DNA from: an uncultured Gammaproteobacteria bacterium
Lineage (GTDB): Bacteria; Pseudomonadota; Gammaproteobacteria; Pseudomonadales; Azotimanducaceae
Reading direction: 5' to 3'
Assembly: GCA_913043815.1 (NCBI GenBank)
Contig: CAJWNY010000008.1
Coordinates: forward strand, 1-55,791
Length of the DNA: 55,791 nucleotides
Position numbers and translations under genes: made by a program. The notes beneath the pieces were generated by a model that did not search any database, was not told the DNA's origin, and was given only the letters and a program-made list of their open reading frames with translations. Numbering within the stretch: the first letter of the stretch is position 1; every line of letters begins with the position of its first letter. Below, piece by piece: positions 38,716 through 40,575 of the stretch.

Positions 38716-39098
38716 ATACTTTCGTTCCTCTACTTTTGGACTGAAGCGCTTTTGATCAGGGCCTGCCCATTTATTAGTTATATTTCCTGAAGTATTTACA
38801 GGTTACGCATACCGGCTGGAATCCGAATCGTTAATAGAGCGTCTTTTGTCCTGTACTGAGATGCTTCCCTATAAAAGAACGCTTGGCTCCAAAAAAGTTA
38901 CCGCCGTGCGCGATAAAATGCTCAATCATACTTGCAGCAATACCTAGCTCTATATGGGCAGACGAAGCAAAAACGTCTTCAACGATACCCACCCAAAACA
39001 GAAACTAGATTTAGCTTGATAAAACACTAGGCTCCTAGGCGCTTTCGCAGGTTTCTAAATCAGCTCTTTCGTCCAGAGTCTGCACTCCTGTAATGTTC

Positions 39099-39117
39099 CC
39101 AATTTTCATAAAATTGG
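39099..39117. repeat. Perfect 8-bp inverted repeat
   Basis: CCAATTTT and AAAATTGG separated by CAT, a perfect AT-rich dyad about 440 bases upstream of the selenoprotein start. It could be an operator or a weak hairpin; no copy was noticed elsewhere. Confidence 0.45.
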
Positions 39118-39455
39118 TGATTCTTTGTTACATGTCTAGTGACTCTGTATCAAACAAAATTAGACACTGCGATAAGTTTACCCTTTATTCGGCTGCCTCT
39201 TTCTTTTAATTACAGATAGGTCCGGGGCGAACTGCTCAATTACTAGTTTAGTTGTCAATTTTCATATCCCTGAGTCGTTAGCTCCGAGACAGGTCTTATC
39301 ACCACCACTAAAAACACGTCAAAGCGACACGAATCCCGGGCCGTTAACTCATCCGTGAGCTCCCTAACTTGGACACTCCTGCCAATCTAAGATAGATTAA
39401 GTGTGCATTAAAAATACTAAATGAAGGGGACGGCTCTTCGTTCAGCAGCGGCTAC

Positions 39456-39484
39456 TTGACGCTATCTTCAAGATGCGGTGTACC
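39456..39484 (+). promoter_or_regulatory. Possible sigma-70 promoter of the selenoprotein gene
   Basis: TTGACG (39456-39461) and TGTACC (39479-39484) are separated by 17 bases, giving a good -35 and a weak -10 about 50 bases before the start codon at 39538. The prediction rests on spacing and the -35 match only. Confidence 0.3.
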
Positions 39485-39537
39485 CTCTTGAACAGTCTTT
39501 AAGAGCTTCACTGGCCAACAACTTTACGGAGACTTAC

Positions 39538-40140
39538 ATGCAAACAACAAAAATTAGCTTTGTGAAAGTGCTGCATCACGTCATGTTTGCGGCGGCATTA
39601 GCGGCATTAAGCCAATTAGCTAATGCAGACTCGGAATACGCGGCAGATTGGGGGCCAAGTATCGGGTCTACTGCTCCCATGCTGTCGGCGATTGACCAGG
39701 ATGGGAACCCGCAAAACCTAGAAAGCCTGAGCAGCGATAAGGGTCTGTTGTTCATTTTCAATCGATCCGTTGATTGGTGACCATTCTGCATCCGTCAGTT
39801 CGTGAAACTGAACGATTTAAAAAACCAGTTTGATGCCCTTGATGTAGGCGTTGTTGGTATGACCTACGATTCACCGGAGATAATCAAAGCGTTTGATGAA
39901 AAGTGGAATATCGAATTCCCCGTGCTTAAAGATGTGGATCGTCAGCATGTCGACGCTTGGGGGATTCGAAACCTAGAGTATGGACCGGGTACCTTTGGTT
40001 ATGGCATTCCCTATCCGGGTGTTGTCTTGATGTCTCCAGAGGGCCAAATACTCGCAAAGTGGGCTGAAAAAGGCTATCGCTCCAGAGCTGATTGGAAACA
40101 GGTTTTGCGCGAGGTACGAACAATTGTGGCTGATTTATAG
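39538..40140 (+). CDS. Exported peroxiredoxin-like selenoprotein, in-frame UGA = Sec81
   Basis: A 200-residue protein read through UGA at 39778-39780. A signal peptide (1-30, ending LANA) is followed by a redoxin/AhpC-like thioredoxin fold: IGSTAPMLSAIDQDGN, LLFIFNRSVDW, then U81-P-F-C84, then GVVGMTYDSPE and FPVLKDVDRQ. Cys-containing relatives have W-C-P-F-C at this point, so UGA replaces the first catalytic Cys exactly. The frame is uninterrupted on both sides, and the second half has no start of its own. The ATG at 39538 has GGAG 7 bases upstream. A SECIS-like hairpin lies at 39793-39814. The likely role is thiol peroxidase or disulfide exchange in the periplasm. The required SelB, SelA and tRNA-Sec genes are not in the window. 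Confidence 0.88.
39793..39814 (+). promoter_or_regulatory. Bacterial SECIS-like stem-loop
   Basis: CGUCAGUU (39793-39800) pairs with AACUGA-CG (39806-39814, one bulged A) around the loop CGUGA (39801-39805). The stem starts 12 bases after the UGA and the loop starts 20 bases after it; a G is the second loop base. These agree with known bacterial SECIS geometry, in which SelB binds a short hairpin just inside the coding sequence. Folding was done by eye. Confidence 0.65.
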
Positions 40141-40176: not shown

Positions 40177-40575
40177 ATGAGAAGTTTCAGAGTTAATATT
40201 GGTTGGGTCGGAATCATCCTGCTTGGGCTCGCGCATGGAGTACTCGAGGATCTGATGTTCATCAAAGTATTAGTCGAATACGCGCCTGTTAGCTGGGACT
40301 TAACCGGCCAATTTTATTTCGTGTTTACCGTACCTCTCGCACAGTTAATGACCTTTGCTATCACCGGAACGCTAGCTTGGCATTTCCTGGACCTACACCA
40401 GATACCCAGACTCATCACGTTTTGGTTGACTTGGGTCATCGCTCGCGCAACATTTTTAGCGATTGTGCAGAACCCAGTTGGTGATATCTCGATTTATCTG
40501 GCGTGGATTACTTTATGGTGTTGTCTGGTAGGGCTATACGCGCGCTCGAAAAGTGTTGCGCCAACGCAGGATTGA
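40177..40575 (+). CDS. Four-helix membrane protein of unknown function
   Basis: A 132-residue hydrophobic protein with four predicted helices (about 9-29, 46-70, 79-98, 104-124) and short polar loops. Charged residues inside the first helix region (HGVLEDLMF) could be functional. I recognise no family. It begins 36 bases after the selenoprotein stop, probably cotranscribed, so it might be a membrane redox partner or quinone-linked reductase of it, but the sequence shows no Cys pair (only Cys-Cys near 114). A weak GAGAA ribosome site precedes the ATG. Confidence 0.65.
   Translation: MRSFRVNIGWVGIILLGLAHGVLEDLMFIKVLVEYAPVSWDLTGQFYFVFTVPLAQLMTFAITGTLAWHFLDLHQIPRLITFWLTWVIARATFLAIVQNPVGDISIYLAWITLWCCLVGLYARSKSVAPTQD

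Follow-up and report, generated by a model that had tools for sequence, protein, structure and literature searches.

Does the reading frame at positions 39538..40140 encode a single selenoprotein, or has a stop codon cut it into two truncated genes? The frame, which we name prxU, lies on the forward strand of the window, by which we mean the whole 55,791-nucleotide (nt) stretch of contig CAJWNY010000008.1 (assembly GCA_913043815.1) from an uncultured Gammaproteobacteria bacterium. An initial annotation had read it as an exported, peroxiredoxin-like selenoprotein. Our analysis supports the selenoprotein reading: the genes for selenocysteine (Sec) use are present in the same genome, and both the in-frame UGA and a stem-loop behind it are kept in relatives. 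We put the probability that prxU is a genuine, probably exported selenoprotein with a UxxC redox role at roughly 0.87, and insertion of Sec at codon 81 appears, from sequence comparison, to be almost certain. The parts of the gene are these:

39538..40140, + strand: prxU (name given here), probably exported AhpC/TSA-family selenoprotein of 200 residues including Sec81, TAG stop
39528..39531, + strand: ribosome-binding-like GGAG, 6 nt 5' of the ATG, read directly
39538..39627, + strand: probable signal peptide, residues 1-30, recognised by eye, with an A-N-A end followed by DSEY and no Cys
39778..39780, + strand: UGA read as Sec81
39787..39789, + strand: Cys84, the U-x-x-C partner, invariant in the 42-row alignment A3

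The frame runs from an ATG at 39538 to the TAG at 40138-40140 and contains the motif VDW-U-PFC; as first described, an in-frame UGA falls on codon 81 (W-U-P-F-C, TGA at 39778-39780). A mechanical list of open reading frames (ORFs; translation table 11) has two entries here, of 100 and 112 amino acids (aa), and ordinary gene calling would presumably split prxU. Read through, the protein matches PF00578 (AhpC/TSA) with E 2.8e-20 over residues 42-171 (73 bits, cut-off 26), a span that bears out the claim of a protein-like frame on either side of the UGA. The further claim that the downstream half has no start of its own is not strictly true, for a GTG at 39802 opens the 112-aa ORF; this GTG is Val89 and sits inside the loop of the stem-loop described below. 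Upstream, the ~760 bases (window 38716-39477) that separate aroE from the prxU frame are without an ORF of 60 aa.

Conservation of the UGA across relatives is the first line of evidence. Homologues were sought in 195 related genomes, of which 175 gave matches; among the matches listed, 130 stretches were examined (30 loci and 100 fetched), three of them without the UGA column, and other listed rows were left aside, including more that have a single TGA in an open frame of ~380-480 aa. The codon is TGA in 116 of the 127 covering stretches and TAA or TAG in none, and the surrounding frame is intact in nearly all relatives, so the unrelated stops or frameshifts that would have refuted the selenoprotein reading did not appear. 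The 11 remaining rows have Cys (two, L074 and L147), Ser (one, L141), TGG (one, L083), or the Thr/Ser of Bcp/Prx-type proteins (seven). A relative with 80% identity carries the same in-frame UGA, and a named close relative is L050, from an assembly labelled marine gamma proteobacterium HTCC2089 and placed by NCBI in the OMG group (79% protein identity). With 94 of the 96 rows L020-L049 and L060-L125 in the Sec form, that form, as judged from these codons, is the rule in the sampled lineage. L044 and L077 show additional stops, at residue 2 of the matched segment and apparently before the start codon, and an apparent 393-base insertion in G034 proved to be a run of N.

Beyond this lineage, a class-wide search (at most nine candidates scored per genome) matched 12 of 369 genomes at E <= 1e-20, namely the window's own and 11 others. 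All 11 of these more distant relatives lack a stop and have WCPxC at the site, and the N-termini of several look signal-like by eye. In the tree, which omits the truncated U rows L033, L039, L040 and L099 and includes six of the 11 class-wide Cys rows, a 93-row group (support 99/95) contains 90 Sec rows and, among them, a single row each for Cys, Ser and Trp, and further Sec rows branch next outside it. This nesting suggests that the exceptions are losses of Sec, with the caveats that the position of L074 is weakly supported and the branch of L141 very long. The Trp row, L083 (G055:C49), has two further in-frame stops and keeps all six pairs of the hairpin, which is probably a relic in a decaying gene. 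Separately, loci L126-L139 form a longer class in the same family of genomes, mostly with open frames of ~380-450 aa, one TGA and usually WUPPC. Among viral contigs, 26 stretches fit a pattern, and only L188 and L189 were confirmed, as weak partial matches (33 residues, 50% identity).

The second line of evidence is a Sec insertion sequence (SECIS) downstream of the UGA:

39795..39811, + strand: bacterial SECIS stem-loop, stem 39795-39800/39806-39811, loop 39801-39805 with G39802 and U39803, recognised by covariation and synonymous invariance

The UGA is separated by 14 nt from the stem and by 20 nt (39781-39800) from the loop, so the hairpin with a G-containing loop first placed 12-20 bases behind it was roughly right. 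In the following, hairpin positions are numbered from the U of the UGA. Among the matches listed, the 21 closest relatives share 65 fully conserved columns, the UGA included, and codons 86-91 (CGT CAG TTC GTG AAA CTG) are identical in all 21, whereas every other conserved column, save five Trp and the UGA, varies between synonymous codons. These six codons occupy positions 16-33 and thus nearly the whole hairpin (18-34). For covariation we aligned 94 of the 116 U rows (92 distinct), omitting the 14 rows of the ~400-aa class L126-L139, seven HWUPYC rows and L158, which has more stops downstream and looks frameshifted. The six-pair stem is formed in 99.1% of 552 cells, with double-sided changes in 91; pair 18-34 occurs as CG, UA, GC, AU, GU and UG, and pair 22-30 as UA (59) or CG (33). 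None of 500 shuffles reached the covariation score, slid versions of the stem pair in 6.0-46.7%, and RNAalifold yields the same stem-loop unprompted. The apical loop has G in 94 of 94 rows and U next in 92 of 94 (L020-L125). Extended to all 114 distinct rows, pair 18-34 holds in 110 and pair 19-33 in 104. On this comparative evidence the stem-loop is under selection. A second Sec class, the HWUPYC proteins (L142, L143, L145, L146, L150, L151 and L155), has a hairpin in another register, with arms CGCCG/CGGCG.

The genome, a 2.85-Mb draft in 133 contigs with a stated completeness of 90% (the window is contig C8), has the machinery that such an element would serve. The check proposed with the initial annotation found all four components: tRNA-Sec (72.7 bits, cut-off 47; ARAGORN anticodon tca), selA (459.8 bits), selB (359.9 bits on C130; an N-terminal piece of 39 residues lies next to selA at the edge of C58) and selD (257.2 bits; a 732-aa frame with a CGGC motif). 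In bacteria, SelB binds the SECIS and delivers Sec-tRNA-Sec to the ribosome, where Sec is inserted; by extension from bacteria generally, SelB would bind the prxU element, deliver Sec-tRNA-Sec and allow insertion at UGA 81. An AhpC/TSA search of the genome gave 13 matches, five of which, prxU included, have one in-frame TGA; Sec thus appears to serve in several of its proteins, and the genome is apparently selenoprotein-rich. The other four AhpC/TSA- or GPx-related genes, on C37 (L173), C45 (L165), C60 (L169) and C65 (L171) of the same genome (G000), have their TGA at a redox motif and comprise, in this order, a GPx-like protein with NVASRUG, an HWUPYC protein, an FWUPPC protein and an SSWUGC protein (related to the NCBIfam WAxxUGC type); these names come from scans of matched pieces whose scores lie below full-length cut-offs. 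Across the 90 genomes with a Sec row, selA is clear in 80.

Two details of the machinery are worth recording beside published accounts. By eye, the N-terminal half of selD resembles an NAD(P)-dependent oxidoreductase; this would be in keeping with the CxxC-bearing Ndh-SelD fusions reported from the Global Ocean Sampling (GOS) data (PMC2398784). The tRNA-Sec (L001, G000:C130) lies outside selB, with a dienelactone-hydrolase-like ORF (by eye) between them, unlike the arrangement in some Gammaproteobacteria, where it is nested in or overlaps selB (PMC13188914).

Several observations count against this account. Folded alone, the window's hairpin is at chance level (-6.5 kcal/mol in 40 nt, z -0.37, equalled or bettered by 72 of 200 shuffles), so the case rests on comparison, and the weight originally placed on the single-sequence hairpin was too great, as only comparison reveals selection. 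In the covariation analysis, two measures, the pairs with a double change and the further pair types, do not rise above chance, 457 and 455 of 500 shuffles reaching at least the same value. In a control, four of 15 non-Sec homologues keep at least five of the six pairs, the decayed TGG copy keeping all six; the hairpin alone is thus no proof of present use. The published bacterial SECIS (bSECIS) model asks for an upper stem of 4-16 bp, an apical loop of 3-9 nt, 16-37 nt from UGA to loop, a G within the first two loop positions, commonly with G or U next, and a minimum free energy (MFE) of at most -7.5 kcal/mol (PMC13188914). The prxU element agrees in stem (6 bp), loop (5 nt), spacing (20 nt) and loop G and misses the energy limit, its MFE being -6.5 in 40 and 45 nt and -7.0 in 57 nt (a 73-nt stretch gives -15.8 with a different structure), although the stretch and energy set may differ from those of the model; averaged over the 94 U rows, a 24-nt stretch gives -7.8. 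Some putative elements also fail the model (PMC13188914), and we therefore call the element a SECIS on its covariation and not as a full model match. An Rfam scan over 39600-40000 detected no SECIS, its one match being a chance SNORD74 (E 2.5), and a 48-nt covariance model run over the genome found no second strong site, its other match (E 0.34, 17.6 bits) being taken for chance. Ten of the 90 Sec-row genomes are without a clear selA (weak partial matches in G103, G106 and G188 were not scored as selA); all ten are multi-contig drafts of 58-96% completeness, and the least comfortable case is G010, stated to be 96% complete. Finally, export of the product rests on an N-terminus read by eye.

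Could the UGA then be an ordinary stop, created by a pseudogene mutation or a sequencing error, with two truncated genes as the result? Such a stop would account for the 100- and 112-aa ORFs of table 11 and would sit well with a hairpin at chance level on its own. It is at odds with a TGA that recurs in stretches from separate assemblies, never as TAA or TAG, within a frame kept in nearly all of them, and with a TGG row that itself looks decayed by its two other stops. We give this explanation next to no credence; in our view the conservation seen in the alignments has already refuted it. An open frame would equally follow if the UGA were read as Trp or another standard residue, through an altered code or programmed readthrough. 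Here the complete Sec machinery, the Cys at the site in more distant relatives and the selected SECIS-type stem-loop all speak for Sec, UGA terminates other frames in the genome and lineage (L165, L166 and L172; L030), and the Trp copy looks decayed, which together make a standard residue very improbable. Insertion of Sec thus remains our reading of codon 81.

The chemistry of the Sec residue is less certain. Alignment places U81 at the Thr and C84 at the peroxidatic Cys of the peroxiredoxin TxxC motif. The statement that the UGA falls on the first catalytic Cys of a redoxin therefore stands for CxxC redoxins such as ResA, with its WCxxC, and fails for peroxiredoxins, whose peroxidatic Cys corresponds to C84. 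A catalytic peroxiredoxin carries T-x-x-C/U with the peroxidatic residue second; prxU has U-x-x-C. With Sec at the Thr place and C84 at the peroxidatic place, the protein is more likely to work through a thioredoxin-like U-C couple than as a classical peroxidase, and from the aligned motifs we lean towards UxxC oxidoreductase chemistry. The protein would cross into the periplasm by its signal peptide, where the U81 selenolate may act as nucleophile and be resolved by C84, so that a peroxiredoxin scaffold would carry a U81-C84 selenenylsulfide, and it would work as a fast thiol/disulfide (or peroxide-linked) oxidoreductase. A periplasmic Sec peroxidase of peroxiredoxin type, with one of U81 and C84 reducing peroxides and the other resolving, is a serious though less favoured possibility: the fold most resembles Bcp, AhpE and Prx chains, Bcp-type rows have their peroxidatic Cys in the C84 column, and a GPx-like gene elsewhere in the genome carries an in-frame TGA. 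Set against these are the replacement of the TxxC Thr by Sec itself and the TxxU-type row L154, where the TGA falls on the C84 position.

Export of the protein is probable, as judged from the N-terminal signal peptide; the structure model has a helix at residues 8-37, and the N-termini of relatives are similar. Export is also a known trait of ResA. Like ResA/TlpA proteins, prxU has a WCxxC-type motif at the same place (E 3.5e-8 against 3c71), and ResA chains, too, rank high among the Foldseek rows for its model; unlike them, it has Sec for the first Cys, and peroxiredoxin chains top the structure comparison. It differs from the Sec peroxiredoxin (TxxU) and from Bcp/PrxQ in having Sec three residues earlier, with C84 at the peroxidatic place. 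The SelL-related redox protein NF040769 is related in sequence (E 2.2e-9), yet the score of prxU, 37.2 bits, is below the cut-off of 120.

The novelty first claimed for prxU was overstated, as UxxC Prx-like selenoproteins have already been catalogued from marine metagenomes, and prxU belongs to this known kind. In 2005 Prx-like proteins that have UxxC in place of TxxU were described as a family from the Sargasso Sea (PMC1088965); the family was counted in GOS in 2008 as Prx-like 1 (PMC2398784) and is included in reviews of 2022 (PMC9312934) and 2026 (PMC13188914), its name in reviews being 'Prx-like thiol:disulfide oxidoreductase'. With UxxC at the active site of an AhpC/TSA domain (pfam00578), the mark of this kind, and an origin in marine microbes, prxU fits Prx-like 1 by domain and motif; the descriptions, in the excerpts of PMC1088965, PMC2398784 and PMC13188914, name no export, lineage or membrane partner. 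In the literature searched, the literal motif WUPFC turned up in two papers, titled on lung cancer and dairy cows. What prxU offers is a clear-cut example of Sec use by a protein that is probably exported, with SECIS bases that are open to testing one by one and a candidate partner.

That candidate is the gene next to it, and the constancy of this neighbour, uncharacterised as it is, is what is new here and an open lead:

40177..40575, + strand: TM132 (name given here), uncharacterised, four predicted helices, probably membrane-bound; same strand, downstream of prxU

TM132 occurs in 20 of the 21 genomes with the window's subfamily (L020-L040), the exception being G017, whose contig ends within prxU. 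It adjoins prxU in 20 of 20 checkable genomes, a count made up of 18 loci with both genes readable, L039, and G011, in which TM132 adjoins the C-terminal piece of prxU on another contig. Just outside the subfamily it is absent within ~1.5 kb at nine of nine loci (L041-L049; tblastn E <= 1e-5). The gap between the genes is 10-120 nt depending on the ATG used, with four start codons unsettled. The structure model has four predicted helices (pLDDT, the predicted local distance difference test, 82.8), and W114-C115 is invariant in 18 rows. Searches for relatives gave no useful Pfam or NCBIfam family, no sequence match in the PDB (best E 0.5) and no fold match there at E <= 0.001 (best E 0.86), which does not by itself make the fold new.

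A functional coupling of TM132 to prxU seems likely, and TM132 would probably be its partner, as membrane dock or reductant. More tentatively, and with odds we consider to be against it, the two genes may form a dedicated envelope redox module in which TM132, with its invariant Cys in the last helix, feeds electrons to the exported Sec redoxin or docks it. To our knowledge, how envelope selenoproteins are kept reduced is an open question, and a true partnership would give a handle on it. In the titles and abstract beginnings searched on exported, periplasmic and Prx-like selenoproteins we found no report of the gene pair, TM132 having no searchable name, nor did we meet a Sec-dependent envelope electron relay of this kind. 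Outside the subfamily genomes, one other clear TM132 was found, in G021, where it starts at base 2 of its contig.
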